Below are positions 32,484 to 63,012 of a stretch of DNA of 64,000 nucleotides, in pieces (the first letter of the stretch is position 1; every line of letters starts with the position of its first letter). Below the pieces are notes generated by a model. It did not search any database, was not told the origin of the DNA, and saw only the letters and a program-made list of their open reading frames with translations. A program made the translations under genes and the position numbers. The DNA lies in assembly GCF_016469035.1 (NCBI RefSeq), contig NZ_JAEHJZ010000032.1:124001-188000 (forward strand), read 5' to 3'. The DNA is from Gelidibacter salicanalis. GTDB taxonomy: Bacteria; Bacteroidota; Bacteroidia; Flavobacteriales; Flavobacteriaceae.

Positions 32484-33515
32484 TTGAGCCAATTTGATTA
32501 TATAAAAGAAATAGCAAAGTATGGTTTAGAAAATGACCAGGAACGCTTATTGACTGTAATTAACGAACTTGTTGAACATTCTAAAAAGACTAAAAAGGTT
32601 AATTTCGCAATTCAATTGCAATCTATCCTTAAAGAGTCTATGCGACAACAAAGCACTAATAATTTGACCAAAGTTGGTTCTGATTCTTATTATCAGCGTC
32701 TTGATGATCGTGATATTCAAGATTTAATTCTTGAAAAAATTACTTCAGACTATTCTTTAGAGAACATTGTTGCAGATGAGGTAGTAATGGGGGAACTAAA
32801 ACATTTTATTGAAGAGCACGATAAAATTGAATTACTTCAAAGATTCAATCTTCCCGTTTCCAATAAATTACTCTTGCACGGACCATCTGGTTGTGGTAAA
32901 ACGCTTGCCTCTTACGTGATTGCTGGCGAACTCGATAAAATGATGGTAGTTGTTAATTTGGGAGCAATCGTCTCATCTAAATTAGGCGAAACAAGTAAAA
33001 ACCTTTCCAAAATATTTAAGAAAGCAGCTCTTGAAGATTGCATAATCTTTATTGATGAATTTGATAGTCTAGGAAAAGTACGTGATTATAGTCAAGACCA
33101 CGGCGAAATGAAGCGTGTGGTTAATACTATTCTTCAGTTATTTGATTATTTGCCTCAAAGCAGTATTGTTATTGCTGCCACGAATCAAAAGGAAATGTTA
33201 GATTCAGCATTGACGAGAAGATTTGATAGTATAATAGGATTTTCTTTACCTAATACGGAACAAATCAAAAACCTTGTTGAACTGACATTAAGTAAGAGTG
33301 GGTTTTTATTCAGTAATAAGAGGGAGGCGACTAATATTATGAAGCTGTGTGAAGGTTTGTCTTATTACAGTATTCAGAAAACTCTGCTCACTGCATTAAA
33401 GAGAAGTCTGTTTAAGCATAGTGATAGAGATATAAAGTCAATTACTAAAATTGATAGCCATATTTGGAAATCTCTTGTTATTGCAGAAAAGAAATCACTT
33501 GACATAAACGCTTAA
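32484..33515 (+). CDS. ietA: AAA ATPase of a subtilase-associated defence pair (IetA-like)
   Basis: About 343 residues. An N-terminal helical region (FDYIKEIAKYGLENDQERLL; KKTKKVNFAIQLQSIL) precedes a AAA core with Walker A GPSGCGKT and Walker B IIFIDEFDSLG, an Asn-containing sensor 1 (VIAATNQKEM) and arginines at LTRRFDS. No in-frame ATG or GTG exists upstream, so the start must be a TTG; 32484 lies just past a good -7 box, while 32451 is the longest option. AAA ATPases of this type next to a subtilase gene match the IetAS anti-phage pair. Here the two genes face each other and share bases of their stop codons (33512-33515). Confidence 0.75.
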   Translation: MSQFDYIKEIAKYGLENDQERLLTVINELVEHSKKTKKVNFAIQLQSILKESMRQQSTNNLTKVGSDSYYQRLDDRDIQDLILEKITSDYSLENIVADEVVMGELKHFIEEHDKIELLQRFNLPVSNKLLLHGPSGCGKTLASYVIAGELDKMMVVVNLGAIVSSKLGETSKNLSKIFKKAALEDCIIFIDEFDSLGKVRDYSQDHGEMKRVVNTILQLFDYLPQSSIVIAATNQKEMLDSALTRRFDSIIGFSLPNTEQIKNLVELTLSKSGFLFSNKREATNIMKLCEGLSYYSIQKTLLTALKRSLFKHSDRDIKSITKIDSHIWKSLVIAEKKSLDINA

Positions 33516-35941
33516 ATTTCCCCCTCCAAATCAGCTTCGGCTTCGGCTATATTTATTACTTCAACATTATTAATTGCTCTTAACTCGTCGTAAAGTCTAC
33601 CAGTATTAGCTCTTAATTTTTCTTCAATTTTAAGAACAAGCGAGAAATTAAATTCTGTAGGATAATTCTCAATCTGAGATGCCATAATCTGATTCGATAA
33701 TAAAGCTTGTACCGCCAGTTTAAAGGTTTTGCCTTCACTACGTAATTGAGAAACGTCAACATTGAATTCAATTTTCTGAACATTACTGTAAGGAGCAGGC
33801 GTTGATTTATCTCTAGCGGATTGTGACCAACTTAGTGTTGTGCGTAATTTTGAATTTAATTCTCGTTGTACTCTGTTAATGTCATCAGATGAATGATTTT
33901 TAAAAACACTAAAGGCCATATGTATTGGGCAATAGGTTAACTGATTATGCTGTAATGGCAAAAAGCTGAAACATAATGTAGCTGTTACTTTAAGGATACC
34001 ATTTGTTTTACCAAGATTCGATGAAATTAAATAATCTGGAAAGTTAACAGGGTAAATTTTCTGTTCACCGCTTTGGATACTGTCTTCAAGAATCATTGTA
34101 ACATTATTCTCATCTGAAAAAATGGTATTATCGACATCAATGACCCCATAGCCTGAGGTTCTGTTTAGTAAAGGTTTGTTGGCATCTGGATAGACTGTGT
34201 TTTTCAAAGATGCCCCATTAATTATCAATGCTTTTAATGTTTGCGACTTTAAATCTGGGTAAAGAATTTTAAGTTTTGCAGCAAGGTTAGCAGTTAGTGG
34301 AGCAGCTAAACTTGTTCCTATTTCTTTGGTGTAACCTAAAGCTGGATTAGACGATAATACGGACATCGCAGCGTTATCCATACGATCTATTGTGTTAGGG
34401 TTGTAAAATCCATAATCACCGCCACTTTCAATAACGTCTGGCTTGAAAAGATTTTTATTACGCTTCTTAACAGAATATATTGCAGCCAGATTAATATGGT
34501 CTGTACGAGTATAAATTGCAGGGAATTCTTTACCTGATGCGATACCATTAAAAGCACCATTATATAGACCATCTGCAGCTGCACCCACTGTCATATTATT
34601 CATTGAGTCTGCCGGCGTATTTAAGTTGGTGTGCTCATTATTAAAGTAGTTTAGGTCATAATCATTATTTTCGTTCATTGCTAGATCATTATTTCCTATG
34701 CTTATAAAAATTAAACTATCAGTTTCGTGTGCAAACTTATCTAGTTCGAAGGTGTAGTTAGAAAATGCTTCGTTCGTTTTCTTGTGGGTTTTATAGCAAA
34801 TTGTTAACACGAAAATACTTAAATGTGGATATTCATTTTTTGCTTTATATAGTAGTTCAATTACTTTTTTTTCAGAAAGGTAGCCATCACCACTTCCTAT
34901 TAATTTTATAGAAAGTAATTTTGCATCTGCATAAATCTCGCCTTCAAAATTAGTGCTATGGTTGTGTCTTCCTAGTGCAGCAAGGGCGCCTACCATTGTG
35001 CCGTGTCCATCGTTTCCACAGTTATCAATTAATGGATTGCCATCTAGCGTAAAAGTGTCATCTTGTAAGGTAATACTGGATAGAGGTGTTTGCATACTTA
35101 TTCCGGTATCTAAGATTCCAATTAAAGGAAGCTCTTCATCTGCATTTACAATTTCAAAACCATAAGCTCTGCTCGGTATATTATATATTCCAGGCCGTAC
35201 CACTCCAGAAAGGGAGGAGGTTATGCTCTCTATAACATCAAAATTTTGAGCAATCACAATAAGCTCATTTAATGTAACGTCGAAAAGCTCTAATCTGTTT
35301 GTCTCTCTATCAATAACATATTCGATTAGATGTTCATTTAAGTACAACCTTAATGCTTCAATGATGCTATTCTCAATTTCTGCATTTGCAGGAAGTTCGA
35401 TTGTTTTTATCACAACTACGTTCCCGAGAGTCTCAGCATCTACTCGCAGTACGTCGCTCAATGTGAGTAACTTAAAGTTTTTTACAAAAAGTATGTTTTT
35501 ATTGTAAGCTGCCTCTGCATTATTCTCTAAACCTCTATTAATTAATCCTTCTACACTTGTTATAAATACCTGAAATTTGTCGTGATCTGCAATAGAAAAT
35601 AGTGCCGTTCTATTGAAGTTTGTGAAGCTTACTCCTTCAAGACCAAATGTATTGTACCAAATGCTATAGTATTTTTCCAAATGAAATTGACCCATAAAGT
35701 CTACCTCTACATAGTCTACGTCATAAGGGACATTAATAGTCTCATCTTTTGCTCTTGCTTTCACTTCTAGGTCACTTAGATACGATTGTAAATCATCCCG
35801 AAAAGCTCTTGCCATAAATATATAATTTGGCTCTGGATTTGCTTCATCGTCGTTGTTTCCGAAACCGTAATTGAACTTTACCTGTCCAGATTCCTCTAGC
35901 TGTCTATCTGCAATGATTCTTAAGTGATTCTTATTTGGCAT
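33512..35941 (-). CDS. ietS: Subtilisin-like (S8) serine peptidase of the defence pair (IetS-like)
   Basis: 809 residues with no signal peptide, so it is cytosolic, unlike most secreted subtilases. The N-terminal 260 residues are of unknown fold. The catalytic triad is visible: Asp278 in LIGILDTGIS, His313 in GNDGHGTMVG and Ser544 in GTSLAAPLTANLA, with the oxyanion Asn417 in ISIGNND. A C-terminal beta-rich part follows. Paired with a AAA ATPase gene, this matches IetAS, in which the ATPase presumably controls the protease. The genes are convergent here with overlapping stops. Its own promoter is not clear; a relic lies just upstream. Confidence 0.82.
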   Translation of the reverse strand: MPNKNHLRIIADRQLEESGQVKFNYGFGNNDDEANPEPNYIFMARAFRDDLQSYLSDLEVKARAKDETINVPYDVDYVEVDFMGQFHLEKYYSIWYNTFGLEGVSFTNFNRTALFSIADHDKFQVFITSVEGLINRGLENNAEAAYNKNILFVKNFKLLTLSDVLRVDAETLGNVVVIKTIELPANAEIENSIIEALRLYLNEHLIEYVIDRETNRLELFDVTLNELIVIAQNFDVIESITSSLSGVVRPGIYNIPSRAYGFEIVNADEELPLIGILDTGISMQTPLSSITLQDDTFTLDGNPLIDNCGNDGHGTMVGALAALGRHNHSTNFEGEIYADAKLLSIKLIGSGDGYLSEKKVIELLYKAKNEYPHLSIFVLTICYKTHKKTNEAFSNYTFELDKFAHETDSLIFISIGNNDLAMNENNDYDLNYFNNEHTNLNTPADSMNNMTVGAAADGLYNGAFNGIASGKEFPAIYTRTDHINLAAIYSVKKRNKNLFKPDVIESGGDYGFYNPNTIDRMDNAAMSVLSSNPALGYTKEIGTSLAAPLTANLAAKLKILYPDLKSQTLKALIINGASLKNTVYPDANKPLLNRTSGYGVIDVDNTIFSDENNVTMILEDSIQSGEQKIYPVNFPDYLISSNLGKTNGILKVTATLCFSFLPLQHNQLTYCPIHMAFSVFKNHSSDDINRVQRELNSKLRTTLSWSQSARDKSTPAPYSNVQKIEFNVDVSQLRSEGKTFKLAVQALLSNQIMASQIENYPTEFNFSLVLKIEEKLRANTGRLYDELRAINNVEVINIAEAEADLEGEI

Positions 35942-40675: not shown

Positions 40676-43600
40676 TTACTGTATCGTGCTGGCATCTATC
40701 CAATCAAATTTCCTCACTTTATCCTTTGCCTTTTTATCATTTAAGCCTGAAACTGGTTTGATGATAGTTCCAAACTTATTATAGTTAACAAGCACGCCAT
40801 CGTCTAAATCTATGGCGATACGCTCTGTAGCTAGTTTAAATAACTCACGGTCGTATTCTTGTAGCTCAATGACTACTTTGTTGATACGGGCTTGTTCTTT
40901 TTCTGCGCTGACTTTTTCTCTATCTGTACCCACATTTTTAACGTGATCCAATTGTTTGTCTTGAGCTTTTAATTTCTCTAGATATTCTTTGAGATACCCG
41001 TTAAGTACGGTGTTAAGCGTGTTTGGTGTGTAGCGGTGCATATAGATTAACGCGTTAAATGCACCAGAAGGCGATGAGAACATCCAGTAGATAGGCCGTT
41101 TTTTATAACGCTTGATATGATCTGTATAAAAAGTCTTTAAAAAGTACTTGCGTATATCGCCCACGCAGTCTTCTACAAAAGCTAGGTTTTTATCAAAATG
41201 GGGAATGCCAAAGGTAGCTTTCAAAAAGGCATAAAAACGACCTACGATATCATCTTCAAACCACTCATTGTCTAGTATTGGGATAACATTATCATCATCT
41301 GGTAAGAAAGACACTTCGACTGCGCTCAGTGTGACATTGTTGAGGTAATCCTCGAGTGTTTCTCCTTGATTGGCAAGAACTAAACCTGGTTTATCCAAGC
41401 TGTAACGTCCAAACATACAACCTACAGCATAACTTATAAACTGCGCCATAATTTCACTTTCGCGGAAGACTAAAGCACCTTTCTTAATTGTGGTCTCTTC
41501 TTTAAGGATTGTAATATCTTTTAGTGGAACTTCTGGTGTTAACTCATCTTGTAAGCCATAGATTTCTATAAAGTGGCGATTGAGTTCTTCTTCATTTTTA
41601 TGCAGCGCAAAGAATTTATTTTGCCAGTATTGGCAATAGCTATCGTAGGCTTCTTGTAAGTCTTGACCTTTTATGCGGATGAGTCCGTTTTGTTGGAAGT
41701 CAGGAGAAACCTCTTTTGTATTTAATTCCAATTTTGAAATATTAATGGAGTTTTTCACTTTTTCAACTACACCTGAGTTCACTGATTTATTTAAAGGCAG
41801 TTTTCTAATTACCCCTGGAGAAGCGTTTAATGTCGGATTAAATAAATTTAATAATTTAGCAGCAACTTTCGTATTTAGAAATCCGAGAAGTTCGTAGTCT
41901 ATGATATTTTCTTTTGAATAAATTGATAAGCCTGCGGAATCAAAAACAAAACCTTTGGGATAGTATCTAAAAGTATTAGTTGAAGAAGTAATTTTAGACC
42001 ACGACAATGAAGGCTTGTAATAAAATCTTTGTCCGTCGTGACGAAAACCTTTCAGCTTATTCATTTCGCATAAACTAGTTTCATTATAATTTATAATGTT
42101 ACTGTGGTTTCCAAACCATTTTCTTGCTTCCCCTCCTTTATTATGCATTTTAAATTTGAATTCATTTGGAAAACCGTCATATCCGTTCCAAATCTTAGAA
42201 TTTGCGACCTCTGTCCATTCATAAATATACTCTGCATTACGACCAGTACAAATTCCTGCCACTATATCTGATTCTGTATTAATAGTCTTAAGTTGACTTA
42301 AGTAATCGATAAAATCTTTTTTTAACCAATAACCAATAGGACTTTGAGTAATTTTATTGAAATTTATTTGATTTGATTTAAAATAGATATTTGAAGGTTT
42401 AATCAATTCCTTCATAAGCCGAGTTCGCTTCTGTTCTGAATTTTTTATTTCGGTCAACCGAATAAAAATTCCCGTTTGCGACGATTTAATTTTGTTAAAT
42501 ACAAATGATGTATTCTGAACCACCTCTCCGCCAATTTCAGGAAATGTTCTTGATCCTAAATGCAGCATTGAATCAAAATGAATGGTTTCAATCAGGTACT
42601 CTCGCAATTTCTCATAGCTACTTAAAAACATCCAACTATGTTGATTAATCATTCCTAAAAACCCTTTTGGCTTTAAGGCAGCGATTCCAGCTTCCATAAA
42701 ACAAGCCATTAGATCTGCTTTGCTTCTTGGGTAATTTACTTTTACAAAATCTGCGAGTGCTTTATTCATATTGCCACCACCCATATATGGTGGATTATCT
42801 ACCACACAATGATATTTTCGTGAAAGCGCACTTAATTGTACAATGGCCTGTAAAATGCCCCTTAGGTTATGCCCGTGAAAAAGGTCGCTATTATTAGCTT
42901 TTTTAGCTAAAGAAGCTCTTGTTTTTTCTAAATCATTTGCAGTTGCTTGTGGTATAATAAGCGACCCTAAATTGGTTGCTTGTTGCATTGTTTTAAGGTC
43001 GTGCAATAATGCATCACTCAATTCTTCATCTACTGCACTAAAAGTTGCTTTTATGTCTTCTTCAGTAATCTGTAAATCTTGATAACAAGAAATATTAGGT
43101 GTAATGTCCTTTTTAAACACACGACGATAATAGTGTCTTGCCTTCAACATTAATGCTAACCCAGCAAGTTGTGCGGCACGCGTATCTATTTCAAAACCAA
43201 AGAGGTTTTTTTCTATAATGTGTGTTGGGATATCACTTTTGTTATAACCTTCTTCTTCATAAATTATAGAAAGTAATTCAAAGCCATAAACGAGTATGTG
43301 GCCACTACCACAAGCTTGGTCCAGGAGTGTAATATCTTCTACGCTATCAATTTTGAGGTAATCGTCTGCCGTAACACTAGGCGATTCTATAAAATAGGGC
43401 ATATAGTCGCGCAGTTTAGATTGTGGGTTATTTTGCATCCACAATTTACCCACGGTGTTTTGAACCATATATTCTACAATCCATCGCGGTGTAAATAACT
43501 GCGTTGCTGCGGGTATGTCCTCTTTTTTTACTTTGCTTTTACTGGCAAATACCTGATCCTTTTTTTCTGAAATGTAAAATTGATAAAGCCAACCTATGAT

Positions 43601-44185
43601 TTCCACTTCTGCGCAATCTTCTGGCTTCATCCCAATCCTAATATCTTCTATGATAGAAAAACTAGAAATAAGATCGTCCGGCAACAACAACTCTGCATAA
43701 TCATCAATCTTTTCAAACAGAAAAGGAAGGGTTTTGCTTAAATGATTGCACGCCCCAACCAATAGCGCTGCGTAGGCTTCATTTTGAGCATCGGTACTTG
43801 GTATTTTACCATCGAGCAAATCATAAATACGTTGGTGTTGTACTGGTAATTCTTCAGGAATATTACCTTGTTTGGCTTCTTGTAATATTGCGGGTAGTGT
43901 TCCACCTTCCATAGGACTTACCACAGAGACTCCTATAGGTTCATAGCCATTCACATCCATAAAACGTAAGGCTACAAAGCGGTTAAACCAAGTGTAGGCA
44001 ACGGTGTCTATCACTTCAGGTTTGGACGTTTTATTAATGGCTTCTTGTAACTTTTTTAAATGGCCCGCTTTTTCGCGTAATTCTACACTATCCGTGGTCA
44101 AAACCTTTTCAAGTTTTGCACCAATCTGGTCTATGAGTTTTACGCGGGCGTCTTGCGCAAAGCGTTTTAGTTGGTTGGTGTTCAT
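40676..44185 (-). CDS. pglX: BREX adenine-specific DNA methyltransferase PglX
   Basis: 1169 residues. It methylates adenine in a non-palindromic site to mark host DNA. The SAM motif is LLDQACGSGHILVYGFE (motif I, DQACGSG at 289-295) and the catalytic motif is NPPY (464-467) in VVDNPPYMGGG. A long target-recognition and helical part follows, with a conserved block SWSKITSSTNTFRYYPKGF. Length is typical for BREX type 1. It follows the regulator gene and its duplicated tail by about 180 bp, a larger gap than elsewhere in the operon. Target site cannot be predicted. Confidence 0.95.
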   Translation of the reverse strand: MNTNQLKRFAQDARVKLIDQIGAKLEKVLTTDSVELREKAGHLKKLQEAINKTSKPEVIDTVAYTWFNRFVALRFMDVNGYEPIGVSVVSPMEGGTLPAILQEAKQGNIPEELPVQHQRIYDLLDGKIPSTDAQNEAYAALLVGACNHLSKTLPFLFEKIDDYAELLLPDDLISSFSIIEDIRIGMKPEDCAEVEIIGWLYQFYISEKKDQVFASKSKVKKEDIPAATQLFTPRWIVEYMVQNTVGKLWMQNNPQSKLRDYMPYFIESPSVTADDYLKIDSVEDITLLDQACGSGHILVYGFELLSIIYEEEGYNKSDIPTHIIEKNLFGFEIDTRAAQLAGLALMLKARHYYRRVFKKDITPNISCYQDLQITEEDIKATFSAVDEELSDALLHDLKTMQQATNLGSLIIPQATANDLEKTRASLAKKANNSDLFHGHNLRGILQAIVQLSALSRKYHCVVDNPPYMGGGNMNKALADFVKVNYPRSKADLMACFMEAGIAALKPKGFLGMINQHSWMFLSSYEKLREYLIETIHFDSMLHLGSRTFPEIGGEVVQNTSFVFNKIKSSQTGIFIRLTEIKNSEQKRTRLMKELIKPSNIYFKSNQINFNKITQSPIGYWLKKDFIDYLSQLKTINTESDIVAGICTGRNAEYIYEWTEVANSKIWNGYDGFPNEFKFKMHNKGGEARKWFGNHSNIINYNETSLCEMNKLKGFRHDGQRFYYKPSLSWSKITSSTNTFRYYPKGFVFDSAGLSIYSKENIIDYELLGFLNTKVAAKLLNLFNPTLNASPGVIRKLPLNKSVNSGVVEKVKNSINISKLELNTKEVSPDFQQNGLIRIKGQDLQEAYDSYCQYWQNKFFALHKNEEELNRHFIEIYGLQDELTPEVPLKDITILKEETTIKKGALVFRESEIMAQFISYAVGCMFGRYSLDKPGLVLANQGETLEDYLNNVTLSAVEVSFLPDDDNVIPILDNEWFEDDIVGRFYAFLKATFGIPHFDKNLAFVEDCVGDIRKYFLKTFYTDHIKRYKKRPIYWMFSSPSGAFNALIYMHRYTPNTLNTVLNGYLKEYLEKLKAQDKQLDHVKNVGTDREKVSAEKEQARINKVVIELQEYDRELFKLATERIAIDLDDGVLVNYNKFGTIIKPVSGLNDKKAKDKVRKFDWIDASTIQ

Positions 44186-44369
44186 TGTTTTATTACTGGT
44201 TATTACAGGTTGTGGGGTATCGGTTATCAGTTATCAGTTGTCGGTTGTGGGATTGACTCAATTTTTTTATTTCAGTTTACTGTTTCCTAAGTTACTCCGA
44301 AGTTTTCTTGCTTTTCTCCGAAGCTTCTCCGAAGTTTTTTTAATGGTTCATTTAATGGTTCATAATAGG
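44186..44369. other. Gap upstream of pglX with short tandem motifs
   Basis: It contains TATCGGTTATCAGTTATCAG (about 44219-44238), a run of TTATCAG units, and further CCGAAG units (44298-44336) of the kind seen in the adjacent regulator gene. No gene. A separate promoter for pglX could sit here but none is clear. Confidence 0.35.
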
Positions 44370-44617
44370 TCACTCCATATTATTATCTGTTTTTAAAGTC
44401 CAATAGCCGCCGAAATCTGCACCTATACGTTCTATAATATTTTCAGTTCTTAGTTTTGTGAAATAATTTTCTACTGATCTGTCGCTCACCCCTATGATTT
44501 TAGCTGCTTCTTTAGCGGTAATATCTTTATTAAAAATGATGAGAAGTAGCAAAACCACAACATTGTCTCCGAAGTCTCTCCGAAATCTCTCCGAAGTTAC
44601 TCCGAAGTTTTTTTAAT
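44370..44617 (-). pseudogene. Duplicated 3' end of the BREX-internal regulator gene
   Basis: Open minus-strand frame without a proper start, translating FGVTSERFRRDFGDN and then LLLLIIFNKDITAKEAAKII, GVSDRSVENYFTKLRTENII and FGGYWTLKTDNNME. This is a diverged copy of the C-terminal winged helix of the gene ending at 44631. The bases after the stops of both copies (AATGGTTCATAATAGGTCA) also match, so the duplication covers coding and downstream DNA, about 270 bp apart. A stop codon upstream prevents fusion with the parent gene. It may be inert or donate sequence by recombination. Confidence 0.75.
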
Positions 44618-44630
44618 GGTTCATAATAGG

Positions 44631-46247
44631 TCATTCCTTACTCTTATCTGTTTTTAAAGTCCAATAGCCTCCGAATGTTGGGCTTCCAACCCGTTCTATC
44701 ACGTTAGCTTCTTTGAGTTTTGTTAAGTAGGTTTCCACAGTTCTATCACTAACACCTATCGTTTTTGCTGCTTCTTTTGCGGTTGTATTTTTATCAAAAA
44801 TGATAAGTAATAATAAAACCACTGTGTTGTCTCCGAAGTGTTCCCGAAGTGTTCCCGAAGTGTTTCCGAAGTGTTCCCGAAGTGTTTCCGAAGTGTTTCC
44901 GAAATGTTCCGAAGTATATTGAATAAAACTGTCATAATTATCCCTCAGAAACTCCATAACATACGCTATGTCAGTAGGTTCTTTATTAAGTTCGATTTGA
45001 AGTCTCTCTAAAGTCTCTCTGAAGTCTCTTCCAAGGGTCTCTGAAGTTTTAGTGCTTTCTTCTTCCGCGTGTGTGTATAATTTAAGGATGGTCGCATCAA
45101 AACTAATGTCATATTCAGGCGCTGTATTATTATAAGTCTTCCAGTTTGCTTCTATGCGGTCAAAACCATAGCCTGCATTTTCTGCAAGACGTACCATTCT
45201 GAATAATTTTGTGATGAGTGGATTTCGTGGCAGGGATAAATCTTTTGCTTTTAACTCTTCAATTGGTTTAGGCAATCCGCCAGGGTTATAAAACTCAATA
45301 TGGTTTGTAAATATGCGTATGCGTGAGTGCGCAGGGGCAAAGTAATCGGCGTGCATTAGCATATTTACAAGTGCTTCACGTATGGCTTTTAAACCGGGGG
45401 AGAGTTCTTGGCCAAAACCTTGATCTGTTAACTGAAATTCAACATCAACCTCTGGCTTTAAGCGTTTAAAACATTCAAAATAATAATCCCAAAGGTTTTC
45501 AAATTCACCTAAGCGAAAACTATAGTTTGAACTTGCTTCGGAAATGGATTTACCTTCTATTTCTAATAAATCAATTCTAAAATCTGGAAAATGCTTTTCT
45601 ATAGTATCTCGTTTTCCTAGAAACAAAAGCCCCGAGTAGGTGAGTTGCCCATTATCCAGAATACGCAGTTTTGAAAGGAAAACATCTTCATCAAAACGGT
45701 TGTAGCTCACATCTGGATTAAAGCGCGCCATATAATCTCGATATTGCTTGAGTGATGTAGCGTGAATATCATCTTTAGACGTATTGGGTGCCAGTTCAGA
45801 TGTTTTTGTGCCAAAGCTTTGGTCTCTATAAAAGGCATCTATTTCATTTTTACGTGCTTTTTGATCGCTGCTCGATCTGCGAATAAACGTATTAGCTTGT
45901 GTATTGTAATACACAGGTTTTTGGGCCGAAACGGGAATGTAAAATGCTAGAACTGTTTTGCCATCAATAACATAACGCTGCTGTTTTGTATCTACAAAAA
46001 CATTAAACTTCTCACCTCGAAGGGTATTTAAAAAGTCCTGTTCTATTTTTTCGGCATTTGTAACGCCTTGAATTTCATAGTTATTACCAATTTCTTTAAT
46101 CCCAAAAACTAGCCAGCCTCCCGAAGTATTTGAAAAAGCACTCACAGTTTCCCAACAAGACTTGGGTACGGCAGCCTTCGCTTCCTTAACCTCAAAATCT
46201 TCCCATTCCAGATCATTTAATTTTGCTATGAGTTCCTTTTTGGTCAT
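44631..46247 (-). CDS. AlbA_2/Schlafen-type ATP-binding regulator with winged helix, inside BREX
   Basis: 538 residues. N-terminal AlbA_2 domain (FEVKEAKAAVPKSCWETVSA, NTSGGWLVFGIKE, about 10-130), a middle part with FRIDLLEIEGKSIS, then an ATPase-like block IREALVNMLMHADYF and IEFYNPGGLPKPIEE (about 275-320) as in RecG-like/COG2865 proteins. The C-terminal winged helix is TAKEAAKTIGVSDRTVETYL. Between them the sequence EHFGNTSETLR repeats; at DNA level this is seven tandem 11-bp units at 44833-44909. It starts directly after brxC (no gap), so it belongs to the operon. Not a core BREX protein; a role as transcriptional or RNA-level regulator is inferred. Frame depends on unit number. Confidence 0.8.
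   Translation of the reverse strand: MTKKELIAKLNDLEWEDFEVKEAKAAVPKSCWETVSAFSNTSGGWLVFGIKEIGNNYEIQGVTNAEKIEQDFLNTLRGEKFNVFVDTKQQRYVIDGKTVLAFYIPVSAQKPVYYNTQANTFIRRSSSDQKARKNEIDAFYRDQSFGTKTSELAPNTSKDDIHATSLKQYRDYMARFNPDVSYNRFDEDVFLSKLRILDNGQLTYSGLLFLGKRDTIEKHFPDFRIDLLEIEGKSISEASSNYSFRLGEFENLWDYYFECFKRLKPEVDVEFQLTDQGFGQELSPGLKAIREALVNMLMHADYFAPAHSRIRIFTNHIEFYNPGGLPKPIEELKAKDLSLPRNPLITKLFRMVRLAENAGYGFDRIEANWKTYNNTAPEYDISFDATILKLYTHAEEESTKTSETLGRDFRETLERLQIELNKEPTDIAYVMEFLRDNYDSFIQYTSEHFGNTSETLREHFGNTSGTLREHFGDNTVVLLLLIIFDKNTTAKEAAKTIGVSDRTVETYLTKLKEANVIERVGSPTFGGYWTLKTDKSKE
44833..44909 (-). repeat. Seven tandem 11-bp units inside the regulator gene
   Basis: Plus-strand unit CCGAAGTGTTY occurs at 44833, 44844, 44855, 44866, 44877, 44888 and, with one change (CCGAAATGTTC), at 44899. 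Three units are 33 bp and code for one 11-residue repeat, so gain or loss of a single unit changes the frame of the C-terminal winged helix. A weaker array with an 11-bp rhythm (AAGTCTCTCTN) lies at about 45000-45050 in the same gene, and related units lie at 44575-44612 in the duplicated tail. Confidence 0.9.
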
Positions 46248-49200
46248 CTACTTTAAGTTGATTTTAATATTTTCGTTTATACGCTTTAAAAATGCTTCTC
46301 GAAGTGCTTCTACATATTCGTTTACATCATCTTCAGACACTAATTCATTCTTTTTATAATCGACGTGAATTTGCGAGCGTCTTATATATTTTGCTATGGG
46401 TTCTGCAGCTTTACCTTCTTCTTTTTTTGGTGCAGCCATATTGGCCATAAGGTTTAAGGCATCTGTATGGATTTGAGATAATTGCTGTTTAGATTGCCTG
46501 ATGTTTGCTATAAAGCGCTCATTTAATATGGCGTTTTTCTTATCGCTTAAAACTTTGACGACATTCAATCGCTGATCTGTATCCAATGTTTTAAAAGCAG
46601 ATCGATTATTTATATCATCTATATATTCTTCTGCTGCAGCTATAAAACCAGTCTTTTCTTCCTTAATAAGCTCCAATACTTTTTTAGACAATTCATCTTT
46701 TGCCGCTTTTGCCAGCTGTACACCGCTTCCTTTGTAAGGAGTATCACTTTCTATTAGCGTTTTGAGTGTGTCCAACTCATCACTTTGAATGTAGTCGAAG
46801 TTTGCGGTATTGCCTTCTAATAGCGCTTTAACATCGTCATAAATATTGCGTTGCTCTCCATTCATAAAACGTTGAATAGGGGAGAGTAGGTCTTCTTTAG
46901 TGTCTAATAATTCATCTTCAAACTCAGAGAGCTTTGTGATGAAATAGCTGTACTCTTTCTTTGACCAGCGGTCTAATTTTCCTGAAAACGGCTCCAGACT
47001 TTTAAGAAATGGATACGACTGTTTGCGAGCCAGTAGTTGATCTACATCGATACGCATTTGTATAAGTCTTTCCTTAAATGCTGAAGCAACATCTTTTGCC
47101 TCACGCAAGGAGCAACTTTCATCGAAGGCATCTTTGTATGCATCTTTCAATTTCTTAACAGCGGTTGCATCAAAAGTAGCTTGCGGATCTAGAATGGTGT
47201 TACCATGATGGGAACTATTTAAAAGTGCGTTTAAAAATGGTTCGTTCTCTAAAAGATTAGAATCCTGTTTTGCCTCAATTTTTCCTCTTTTATAGAGCTT
47301 TGCCGTAACAGTCCAAATAGCATTTGGATACCAGCCATAAGGTTTTTTAATAAATACATTTTTAATATCATTGAGCGTTGTACGATCGCTCCGATTTTTT
47401 CGCTTTAAAATCTCACTTAAAATCTCACCTTCCGCCTCAGAAATAGTGGTATCATCATTTGTAAACAGCGCATCTGGCGATGTGCGAATGGTATTCTTAA
47501 TAGTATCTTCAGAAAAGGAAACAGATTTCAGCATACGCAAATTAGGGTACACTATGGCAACCAGTTTTTGAAACGCATTGATAACGCGGGTTTTTCCGTC
47601 ATTGGAATTTGTCATCTCCAATTTACTTCCATTTAGGAATACTTGTGACTCTGCTAATGCTTTGTTGGCCATAAGAATCAAATTCTTCTTGCGGATTACA
47701 TTTTGCATTGACTTTTCTTGAAGGATACGAGCTACTTGAGGTCTTGTTCCAGAACCTCTATTTTGCATTTCATATTTTGCTGTTTTGATAAACATTCTTA
47801 CGTCGTGCATAAAAGTCGCGTTGGAGGCAAGGACTAGCTTCATACCTGTGCTTCCCATAGTTTGGGATTGTATGAAAGCTTCATTATCATAATCTTGATA
47901 ATTATCAGTAATAATCTCTACTTCCAGTTCCTTCTCACGACCGAAGAAACTACCGTCTATTTTACTTGTAAAATCATAATCCTGTTTGTTCTCAAGATAT
48001 TTTATTTTGTTATCTCTTATTATTTCATCAAAAAGAATCTCTTTGAGCAACTGAGTAATTGCTTGCTCATCAATATCCGTGTTTTTTATTTCTTCTTCTA
48101 CATCCTTTTCATCATCAGTTAAAAACTCAAAAATATCGCCGTTGCGTTGCACATAACTTTGATTTTCTAGAATAGTCAATGCAGTATCAATCTTGGCTTC
48201 GTGTTCTTTAAGGTTAACGTTAATATCGTCTATGAGCAATACCGAAATATTACGTTTTGTTGTTTTAAAATTTCCAAAATACTTTACCAGAAACAATGCT
48301 TTAAGAACCTTTACAGCAAAGCGGTCGTCCAATTGTTTTTCGGCAAGAATGATAGATTGCTGTATTTCTCCACGTAGTTCATTACGAATGCCCTCGAACA
48401 TTAGATCGAAACTTACGAGCGCATTTTTATCACGTTCTTGAATGGCTTTAATCACCTGTTGAAATACACCCAGCATAGAACGTTCTCCTACCGATGCGTG
48501 TTTTCCTTGAAAGGCGTTATGATTTGATAACGCAATTCTACACTGCTGGAATAAATCGAACTGATATGGGACAAATGGAAATTTATTTGCGTAATCATTA
48601 TTGTCTTTATAGCCTCTAAACTGAACGCCAGCTTCGGAAAATGACAATAAGGATTCTAAGTGAGGTCCATTTTTTTTGTGCGCATTGGCTAATTCTTCTT
48701 GTGCCTTATCATTTTTATCAAGCAAGCGCTTTTCAATTACTTCATCTACGTTGGCAGAAGTAAGCGGTATTTTTATTTTGAATCGTGCCTGAATACGGGA
48801 AAAGTCATTTTGTTGGCTCTTGTTCATATCGCCTACAACAGTTTCCATATCCTCTTGAGAGGTAACTAAAAGCCAAGAATTACCTTTTGTCTTGGTTGCT
48901 AATGTTTCTGCAATGGTTTGCAGGTTCAGCATTAACTTGGTATTGTCACTTATGTATTGACCTACTTCGTCTACAAAGAAATTTAACCTAAAACCTTTAG
49001 GTTTTGAATCAATATAAGTTTTTACGCGGTTGCAAAAATCTTCAATGGACTGTTTGTTTTTATCTTCTAATTCGTCAAGAATATTCTCATATTTTTCAGG
49101 GCTCTCATTAAATACAGTTGCTAAAATATCTTTTACCTCCAAAACGAAATATTCTAAACGATCTACTTCCCAAGATGTATCATTTACCTTCTTATATTCA

Positions 49201-49730
49201 GTTTTAAAAGCTTCATATTTTCCTTTTCCATCCAGCCACATTTCGAACTCTGCTACGTGAGGTTGAAAGCCGTAATATCCTAAATGATCATAGAACACTT
49301 TGTAGAATACAGATAGAATCGCATTAGGATCTTCTTTACTGGTAATCTGTGCTTGTTGATCAATATTGAATAATATAGACTCGGATGGAATACGTGTGGC
49401 GTTTAAAATATCACCTTTGAGCATCTCGTCGTTGTCTACTTTTTCCGCAAACAACTCTCCAGATTTCCAGCCATCGTGTTCTTTGTTTTCTAATACGTAA
49501 GACAAGATTTTTAATAAGTGAGATTTACCACTTCCGAAGAAACCAGAGATCCAAACACCATTTGCACCGGCATAATCATTATAGGCTTGAAAGAAGTCTC
49601 TAATTTTCTTTCCTATTTCATTAGTAATAACATATTCAGTGACTTCTGTAGAAATGTTATCACGGTCATCTGCCTTAATAACTGTTTCAATAGGACGGTC
49701 TATAGGTTTTTCAAAATATTGTTTTATCAT
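46248..49730 (-). CDS. brxC: BREX P-loop ATPase BrxC
   Basis: 1160 residues, typical of BrxC. The Walker A is GFFGSGKSHLLKIL (from about residue 63), preceded by EKPIDRPIETVIKADDRD, a conserved start of the family. A region like NFFVDEVGQYI (about 265-275) would be Walker B. Long helical C-terminal part. BrxC is a core component forming assemblies with PglX/PglZ. The ATG overlaps the stop of brxB (49727-49730) by four bases, and the regulator gene starts immediately after its stop. Confidence 0.94.
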   Translation of the reverse strand: MIKQYFEKPIDRPIETVIKADDRDNISTEVTEYVITNEIGKKIRDFFQAYNDYAGANGVWISGFFGSGKSHLLKILSYVLENKEHDGWKSGELFAEKVDNDEMLKGDILNATRIPSESILFNIDQQAQITSKEDPNAILSVFYKVFYDHLGYYGFQPHVAEFEMWLDGKGKYEAFKTEYKKVNDTSWEVDRLEYFVLEVKDILATVFNESPEKYENILDELEDKNKQSIEDFCNRVKTYIDSKPKGFRLNFFVDEVGQYISDNTKLMLNLQTIAETLATKTKGNSWLLVTSQEDMETVVGDMNKSQQNDFSRIQARFKIKIPLTSANVDEVIEKRLLDKNDKAQEELANAHKKNGPHLESLLSFSEAGVQFRGYKDNNDYANKFPFVPYQFDLFQQCRIALSNHNAFQGKHASVGERSMLGVFQQVIKAIQERDKNALVSFDLMFEGIRNELRGEIQQSIILAEKQLDDRFAVKVLKALFLVKYFGNFKTTKRNISVLLIDDINVNLKEHEAKIDTALTILENQSYVQRNGDIFEFLTDDEKDVEEEIKNTDIDEQAITQLLKEILFDEIIRDNKIKYLENKQDYDFTSKIDGSFFGREKELEVEIITDNYQDYDNEAFIQSQTMGSTGMKLVLASNATFMHDVRMFIKTAKYEMQNRGSGTRPQVARILQEKSMQNVIRKKNLILMANKALAESQVFLNGSKLEMTNSNDGKTRVINAFQKLVAIVYPNLRMLKSVSFSEDTIKNTIRTSPDALFTNDDTTISEAEGEILSEILKRKNRSDRTTLNDIKNVFIKKPYGWYPNAIWTVTAKLYKRGKIEAKQDSNLLENEPFLNALLNSSHHGNTILDPQATFDATAVKKLKDAYKDAFDESCSLREAKDVASAFKERLIQMRIDVDQLLARKQSYPFLKSLEPFSGKLDRWSKKEYSYFITKLSEFEDELLDTKEDLLSPIQRFMNGEQRNIYDDVKALLEGNTANFDYIQSDELDTLKTLIESDTPYKGSGVQLAKAAKDELSKKVLELIKEEKTGFIAAAEEYIDDINNRSAFKTLDTDQRLNVVKVLSDKKNAILNERFIANIRQSKQQLSQIHTDALNLMANMAAPKKEEGKAAEPIAKYIRRSQIHVDYKKNELVSEDDVNEYVEALREAFLKRINENIKINLK

Positions 49731-62207: not shown

Positions 62208-63012
62208 AATCTTTGGTTTTAGTGGTCCGCAAGTTGTCCTTGTCCCGGTACCTATCGGGATGGGACAGTTGATTTTTGTTTGGTTTGTTTACTTCGGAAT
62301 ATAGCTCCGCTCTGTCCATCCAATTTGCAGCCAAGGCACGCCAATCTCTAATGGTTTTCCCATCGCTGGTTTTCCAATTCCGATTTTCATAGTGCTCGAA
62401 GAATTTTTTTCCTTCATCAGCAGTAAAACTTTTTTCTAAAAAAAAATTAATAACGGCCTGCCAGCCCTTTGGTTGTTTTATAGTGTTTACTTGTTTGGTA
62501 TTGTTTATAGTAGATCCCATTTTAAGTCCTGTGGTGGGACTGTAGTGTCCCAGATCAGGTTCATTTTTGGGATTGTACAGTTCCGCTACCTGTTCCAATA
62601 TGGGACTGTACTCCCCTGATATGGGACTGTAGAGTTCCAGAGTCGGTTTATTTTTGGGACTGTAGAGTTCCGCCACATGTTCTAATATGGGACTGTCACA
62701 TCCCATATTAGCCCCATCATCTGTGCAAAGAATGGACATCTTTATTTTGCTTCCCTTATAAGGACTTTTGGAAGGAAAATATGAAAGATAATTCCATGAG
62801 TTTAGGTCGGTCACACACCTGTGGTAGCTTGATTTTGAACGGATTTTGGAGGCCGTCATCAAATCCGTTCGATTCACATAGAATTGAATTGCAAACCGGC
62901 TACTGTTCCATTCTTGGAACAGTGCCATATAGAGACTGATGTGTGGAGGATTTAGACGGTCATCCAAAAGAAATTTTTCATAGGCCGCATTGAGTAGTTT
63001 AATGTAATTCAT
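62191..63012 (-). CDS. Replication-associated protein of the element with YSP repeats
   Basis: 273 residues. The N-terminal 95 residues (MNYIKLLNAAYEKFLLDDRL; SSRFAIQFYVNRTDLMTASK) look like a winged-helix of the DnaD/replisome-organiser kind seen on Bacteroidetes elements. The middle has six spaced Tyr-Ser/Asn-Pro or Ser-Pro motifs (ELYSPKNKP, LELYSPISG, EYSPILEQ, ELYNPKNEP, HYSPTTG), coded by regularly spaced 10-bp DNA repeats. A C-terminal part (WQAVINFFLEKSFTADEGKK) resembles DnaD-like tails. It precedes the helicase-loader-like gene. No exact family recognised. Confidence 0.65.
   Translation of the reverse strand: MNYIKLLNAAYEKFLLDDRLNPPHISLYMALFQEWNSSRFAIQFYVNRTDLMTASKIRSKSSYHRCVTDLNSWNYLSYFPSKSPYKGSKIKMSILCTDDGANMGCDSPILEHVAELYSPKNKPTLELYSPISGEYSPILEQVAELYNPKNEPDLGHYSPTTGLKMGSTINNTKQVNTIKQPKGWQAVINFFLEKSFTADEGKKFFEHYENRNWKTSDGKTIRDWRALAANWMDRAELYSEVNKPNKNQLSHPDRYRDKDNLRTTKTKDYGQPL
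62535..62697. repeat. Six iteron-like 10-bp repeats within the replication gene
   Basis: TGGGACTGTA occurs at 62535, 62601, 62622 and 62655, with single changes at 62568 (TGGGATTGTA) and 62688 (TGGGACTGTC). Start-to-start spacings are 33, 33, 21, 33 and 33 bp. The regular phasing and location just before the ATPase gene recall replication iterons, but all spacings are multiples of three, so a protein-level repeat explains them equally well. Confidence 0.85.

Follow-up and report, generated by a model that had tools for sequence, protein, structure and literature searches.

An 11-bp tandem array in a Schlafen-type BREX accessory gene: a candidate frame switch at the border of exchangeable winged-helix cassettes

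Introduction

Can a tandem repeat whose unit is not a multiple of three nucleotides switch an accessory gene inside a BREX operon, and which part of the protein would such a switch affect? The question is raised by a 64,000-nt stretch of the Gelidibacter salicanalis genome (hereafter the window), for which a sequence-only reading had proposed that seven 11-bp units in a gene between brxC and pglX could shift the reading frame, remove a C-terminal winged helix and so phase-switch an accessory regulator.

Results

The repeat in question, array 1 (44830..44915, minus strand), consists of seven units at 44833-44909 with flanking partial units that reach 44915. Exact copies of CCGAAGTGTTY stand at 44833, 44844, 44855, 44866, 44877 and 44888, and the seventh unit (44899) is CCGAAATGTTC, one change from this motif, so the seven units are as proposed, six of them perfect. 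TRF reports the array at 44833-44915 with period 11, 7.6 copies, 91% matches and a score of 131 (an alternative reading with a 33-bp period scores 148), and 100 dinucleotide-preserving shuffles of the window score 74 at most. No exact match to the double unit turned up anywhere else in the 5.16-Mb, 682-contig genome. The array lies in frame within a 538-aa ORF (44631-46247, minus strand) and is thus a non-triplet tandem repeat inside an ORF, one of the marks of a contingency locus. Because three units of 11 bp make 11 codons, the same kind of 11-residue repeat (SETLREHFGNT-like) is encoded in every frame; translation of the window shows that both alternative frames lose the winged helix-turn-helix (wHTH) domain shortly past array 1, and a frame change would therefore remove it, as anticipated.

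The gene (44631..46247, minus strand, as are all features given here) follows directly upon brxC (46248..49730), and its product runs in the order SLFN_AlbA_2, HATPase_c_4, linker and wHTH. The body ends in array 0 (44998..45047), a run of degenerate 11-bp repeats, which is followed by a spacer predicted to be helical in the structure model (44916..44997), array 1, the C-terminal wHTH 1 (44652..44828), in frame in the window allele, and the TGA stop codon of this first cassette (44631..44633). Past the stop, and in the same frame, there is a second array and wHTH cassette (44391-44608), made up of array 2 (44566..44608, about four 11-bp units) and the apparently silent wHTH 2 (44391..44564), across which runs a GTG-initiated 62-aa ORF (44370-44558). 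Array 3 (44283..44336), again of 11-bp units and with no wHTH behind it, lies between the second cassette and pglX, the BREX methyltransferase gene (40676..44185), which starts 445 nt past the stop of cassette 1. Of the further 11-bp repeats announced by the sequence-only reading both places are real; the one near 44998-45047 falls in the ORF, but the one at 44566-44608 lies past the stop codon. The two wHTH segments share 73% DNA identity with a dN/dS of 0.12, synonymous sites being near saturation. As wHTH 2 does not look decayed, it would have been in use until recently or may still be so.

Both N-terminal domains clear their curated Pfam cut-offs: SLFN_AlbA_2 at residues 14-131 (E 7.6e-18, 65.6 bits against 25.3) and HATPase_c_4 at residues 308-382 (E 7.8e-15, 55.1 bits against 26). 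The C-terminal domain of the window protein remains under the HTH_11 cut-off (17.2 bits against 25) and is wHTH-like in the structure model (helix-helix-helix-strand-strand), a model of modest confidence (pTM 0.49); the corresponding domain of one relative, L036/L100, clears the same cut-off (26.8 against 25). PDB relatives at the profile level include 2kyy and 5yd0, Schlafen 8. In the fold search 2kyy matches the N-terminus of the modelled protein at domain level, and 3lmm is the best match over most of the length (E 1.1e-19), but with a TM-score of 0.37. Two acidic residues five positions apart, E14 and E19, are invariant in 23 sequences, in which a third conserved acidic residue of a catalytic triad was not recognised. 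Schlafen-minimal histidine kinase-wHTH proteins are catalogued in a 2026 NAR article (PMC12839542) as BREX auxiliary RNases, which makes the term regulator doubtful for this architecture. The accessory regulator of the earlier reading is therefore less likely than an accessory effector with a putative DNA-binding tail, and we describe the product as a putative Schlafen-type RNase effector that is not clearly a regulator.

Relatives were collected by scanning a single genome per species for either of two exact peptides (35 loci), by viral profile scans (one and three relatives, one common to both), and from sampled, partly overlapping sets of 397, 395, 395 and 335 genomes, which added few loci. 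Linkers were read in 30 loci (L036, L064-L091 and L099) and in six others, two of which repeat earlier genomes (L120 and L121, equal to L072 and L079, each counted once); L092-L098, N-terminal fragment matches, were left out, and L090 ends before the linker. By TRF, 34 of the 35 genes, the window included, have tandem arrays in their linkers, with units of 11 bp in 16 (window, L036, L064-L074, L076, L081 and L124), 12 bp in 15 and 42 bp in 3; L091, whose body carries a frame change, has no linker array by TRF. Carriers of 11-bp arrays include Aequorivita capsosiphonis, Lacinutrix jangbogonensis and Mangrovibacterium. In L081 an 11-bp rhythm lies beneath a 33-bp repeat and the C-terminal domain is in frame. 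Judged by unit size, a frame shift is impossible in 18 of the 19 other relatives, those with 12- or 42-bp arrays (15 + 3). Arrays of 12 bp are also common in the linkers of more distant Schlafen-type genes, and two of the three viral relatives, L099/L114 and L115, have them as well. In the orthologue L124 the 11-bp units of the linker (2689-2773, 7.7 copies of CAAGCTGGCAC) have quite another sequence, and this non-triplet array looks independent.

Searches beyond these relatives gave 115 plasmid records, all below 60% identity and none over 80% of the query, and a single match to the gene, at 13%, in a phage set. The 11-bp pattern was found in eight stretches of a viral scan, none with this gene, and in six other genomes of the family, where 12 translated loci inspected by eye showed no Schlafen-like ORF. 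Elsewhere in the window, an 87-bp repeat rich in GGGACTGTA (62535-62696, 1.9 copies) lies in a minus-strand ORF.

The nearest relative of the window gene, L064, has 92.7% identity in both the body and the wHTH, and the alignment from gene nt 1001 to about 1610 contains a single gap, 22 bp or two units long, inside the array (BLASTN of the whole gene places 17 gaps, which again come to a net 22 bp). Its body frame ends at 489 aa, with the wHTH open and stop-free in another frame, and the dN/dS against the window is 0.075 for the wHTH (10 synonymous and 3 non-synonymous changes) and 0.052 for the body; the record comes from a co-assembled MAG. The earlier reading had expected relatives to differ by unit numbers that are not multiples of three, and this difference of two units, which leaves the wHTH intact and out of frame, is of that kind. 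In L036/L100, from another genus and outside BREX, the wHTH is likewise out of frame yet intact; this copy lacks the spacer between array 0 and array 1 and is therefore not a pure slippage allele. Whole-unit, frame-changing differences do, on these alignments, occur among relatives, between species only. The C-terminal domain is in frame in 14 of the 16 genes with 11-bp arrays, among them the window and also L072, L074 and L076, which have stop codons elsewhere. Plain lesions outside the array, found in L072, L074, L076, L079 and L091, indicate frequent loss of the gene, and the two copies that are out of frame could be pseudogenes at an early stage.

Five in-frame alleles that share one kind of wHTH have exactly seven units (window, L066, L067, L068 and L070); the close relationship between window and L066 does not extend to L067, L068 and L070. 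In a comparison of these five equal-length arrays (six of the seven units each, the last omitted; L064, L065, L069 and L071 excluded), units are 85.3% identical within one array, against 77.3% at the same position across genomes, which hardly exceeds the 77.0% at different positions; 1 of 5000 permutations attained the observed value. Units resemble each other more within a genome than across genomes, and so seem to have turned over by loss and gain at a constant seven. This pattern is compatible with slippage followed by selection that keeps the frame, and also with a linker whose length is fixed.

In the Mangrovibacterium pair L068/L069, 91.7% identity extends over 6.2 kb from brxA to array 0, where homology stops at gene nt 1247, inside the array, and returns at the pglX start; the bodies are 94.3% identical, the wHTHs 56.0%. 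Between L036/L100 and L067 an identity of 91.2% holds as far as nt 1237, the endpoint of the L036 array, beyond which BLASTN finds no relation (bodies 91.6%, wHTHs 52.0%). Compared with the window, L065 loses homology at array 0 (nt 1202) and L071 already at nt 1110; with L066 there is no break in the linker, and homology continues into a wHTH that is only 79.7% identical. As read from these alignments, array 0 is the joint at which the C-terminal parts of relatives were exchanged. Cassettes are also found in multiple copies: L122 (2715-3146) has two array and wHTH cassettes, 95% identical over 195 bp and in frame in one ORF, and L008, from the same genome as the window, and L067 hold an extra wHTH-coding segment beyond the stop. 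A wHTH profile run over 38 loci gives three clear downstream copies (window, L008 and L067), the rest being weak (E 0.017 or worse). The larger finding at this locus, judged from the compared genes, is that the exchangeable, in places duplicated wHTH cassettes are bordered by the arrays; the sequence-only reading had overlooked this together with the second wHTH-coding copy behind array 2.

Among 38 Schlafen-type loci, 13 have a 10-13-bp array that begins no more than 110 nt past the stop, and none has one that begins in the 110 nt ahead of the start (Fisher p 7e-5, for loci that are partly related; in five the downstream DNA is shorter than 900 nt); more distant upstream arrays are present in L024, L027, L077, L080 and L099. 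Ten of the 13 post-stop arrays have no recognised wHTH behind them and several look non-coding; they could be what is left of lost cassettes, or else DNA-binding sites. In L014, L015, L017, L020, L022 and L023, 10-12-bp arrays begin within about 35 nt past the Schlafen stop, and in some of these six loci copies of the motif extend to the next gene and look like dispersed direct-repeat sites. The idea that the TTCGGA unit is an operator was rejected, as outside the linker it occurs only as scattered copies in the 11 loci searched, the window included.

The BREX setting between brxC and pglX given by the earlier reading is borne out by PADLOC models for brxA, brxB, brxC, pglX, pglZ and brxL, in a type 1-like operon. 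BREX genes adjoin the Schlafen-type gene in 8 of 37 loci, a count in which L074 figures only through a weak 25% PglX match, many loci lie on short contigs and L036 is only a 3-kb piece; L100, the wider region around L036, has no BREX genes. Five of nine BREX copies have their in-frame stop at -4 to +12 nt relative to the pglX start, and in L064 this stop overlaps that start (ATGA), the shifted frame stopping 118 nt earlier. Because of this proximity, a frame switch may alter pglX translation in tightly packed copies, an effect that would not apply directly to the window with its 445 nt between stop and start. Beside brxL, the ORF 33512-35941 has strong PADLOC IetS matches (best E 3e-38) and is a possible second defence gene. 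The pglX genes of L068 and L069 are 94.5% identical over the first 623 bp and then have no BLASTN match until a 263-bp stretch of 85.6% identity, an apparent further swap in the methyltransferase.

Discussion

We think it fairly probable that the array is an unstable linker repeat at the border of an exchangeable wHTH cassette and that slippage toggles the wHTH. The 11-bp array separates a conserved Schlafen-ATPase body from this cassette; gain and loss of units by slipped-strand or recombinational events would make the gene a contingency locus, alternating between a protein with and one without the DNA-binding tail, probably a sensing or targeting part, and exchange at the arrays would alter what the tail recognises, with selection presumably holding most genomes in frame. 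The repeat may thus be frame switch and shuffling joint in one. The account is weakened by the 14 of 16 genes in frame and the five seven-unit alleles, which suggest more constancy than a fast switch would. A wider version, according to which the arrays are built-in joints that combine an on/off frame switch with a crossover point for new sensor cassettes, with spares kept beyond the stop, strikes us as possible rather than probable.

Other explanations account for parts of the evidence. If the arrays are primarily recombination joints for wHTH swaps, frame shifts would be a by-product without regulatory use. In agreement with this, homology breaks off at array 0 in two pairs, the window and L122 have tandem cassettes, and L008 and L067 have spare wHTH segments past the stop; L036 could itself have arisen by a swap, for its single array starts where array 0 of L067 starts and then leads into another wHTH. 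L064 and the window, however, differ in unit number with nothing that points to a swap (92.7% identity in body and wHTH alike). We hold this explanation to be tenable but short of probable, and as it overlaps with the preferred one the likelihoods given to the different readings need not add up to certainty. Alternatively, the array could be only a helical, repeat-built linker whose length is set by structure, the out-of-frame copies being accidental losses of a costly, toxin-like gene. Such a linker would agree with the exactly seven units of five in-frame alleles and with the 12- or 42-bp arrays at the same place in 18 of 19 other relatives, and it has a precedent in type IC HsdS, whose TAEL linker is encoded by a 12-bp repeat (PMC3874165); accidental loss would agree with the ordinary lesions that break several other relatives. 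Yet both copies put out of frame by the array are otherwise intact, the L064 wHTH is about as constrained as the body, and units turn over although their number stays, so that we consider this combination unlikely.

Arrays with a period of about one helical turn might also be DNA sites bound by the protein's own wHTH, their coding role being secondary. Their frequency within 110 nt past the stop (13 of 38 loci, none before the start) and the non-coding look of several of them speak for such sites; but unit copies do not cluster in promoters or elsewhere in the tested loci, the same TTCGGA-type unit precedes wHTHs that are unlike each other, and the post-stop arrays may equally be remnants of lost cassettes, which leaves the idea quite improbable. 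That the out-of-frame records are assembly errors is more improbable still: L064 does come from a co-assembled MAG, but the array units carry distinguishing variants, arrays of such length are shorter than typical reads, and L036/L100 sits on a single 3.7-Mb contig.

If the preferred account of a toggled and exchangeable wHTH is true, the BREX operon has a second layer of variation, in an accessory Schlafen effector rather than in the methyltransferase, and the effector's DNA-binding tail changes both by repeat slippage and by cassette exchange, which would suggest how such effectors track phages and are silenced when costly. If the wider, built-in-joint version holds, the arrays would amount to a device by which defence sensors are diversified across Bacteroidota.

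In hsdS and pglX, recognition regions are shuffled between conserved bodies. The Schlafen-type genes resemble these systems in combining a conserved body with exchanged DNA-recognition modules, and differ in having a short tandem array of direct repeats as their junction. The BREX Schlafen auxiliaries treated in PMC12839542 have the same domain order and the same place inside the operon as the window gene; the main text of that article does not contain the term 'tandem repeat', has 'phase-variable' only in the title of one reference, and as far as this text goes mentions neither repeats nor frame switching or cassette exchange of these proteins. Repeats or phase variation in Schlafen, AlbA_2 or COG2865 genes were not found in the open-licence PMC literature, preprints lying outside its scope. 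For the Streptomyces Pgl system, PMC4365076 describes phase variation of pglX through a G tract, and work on BrxR suggests phase variation as a possible reason for disrupted pglX genes. What our proposal shares with the Streptomyces system is repeat-based switching in a locus of BREX/Pgl type; there a mononucleotide tract lies in the methyltransferase, whereas here an 11-bp array lies in a Schlafen accessory gene and only the C-terminal domain is affected. The TAEL repeat of type IC HsdS (PMC3874165) is likewise a short tandem repeat that codes for a helical linker beside DNA-recognition parts, and its unit number matters; its 12 bp keep the frame and shift the spacing, whereas the 11 bp of the array described here change the frame.
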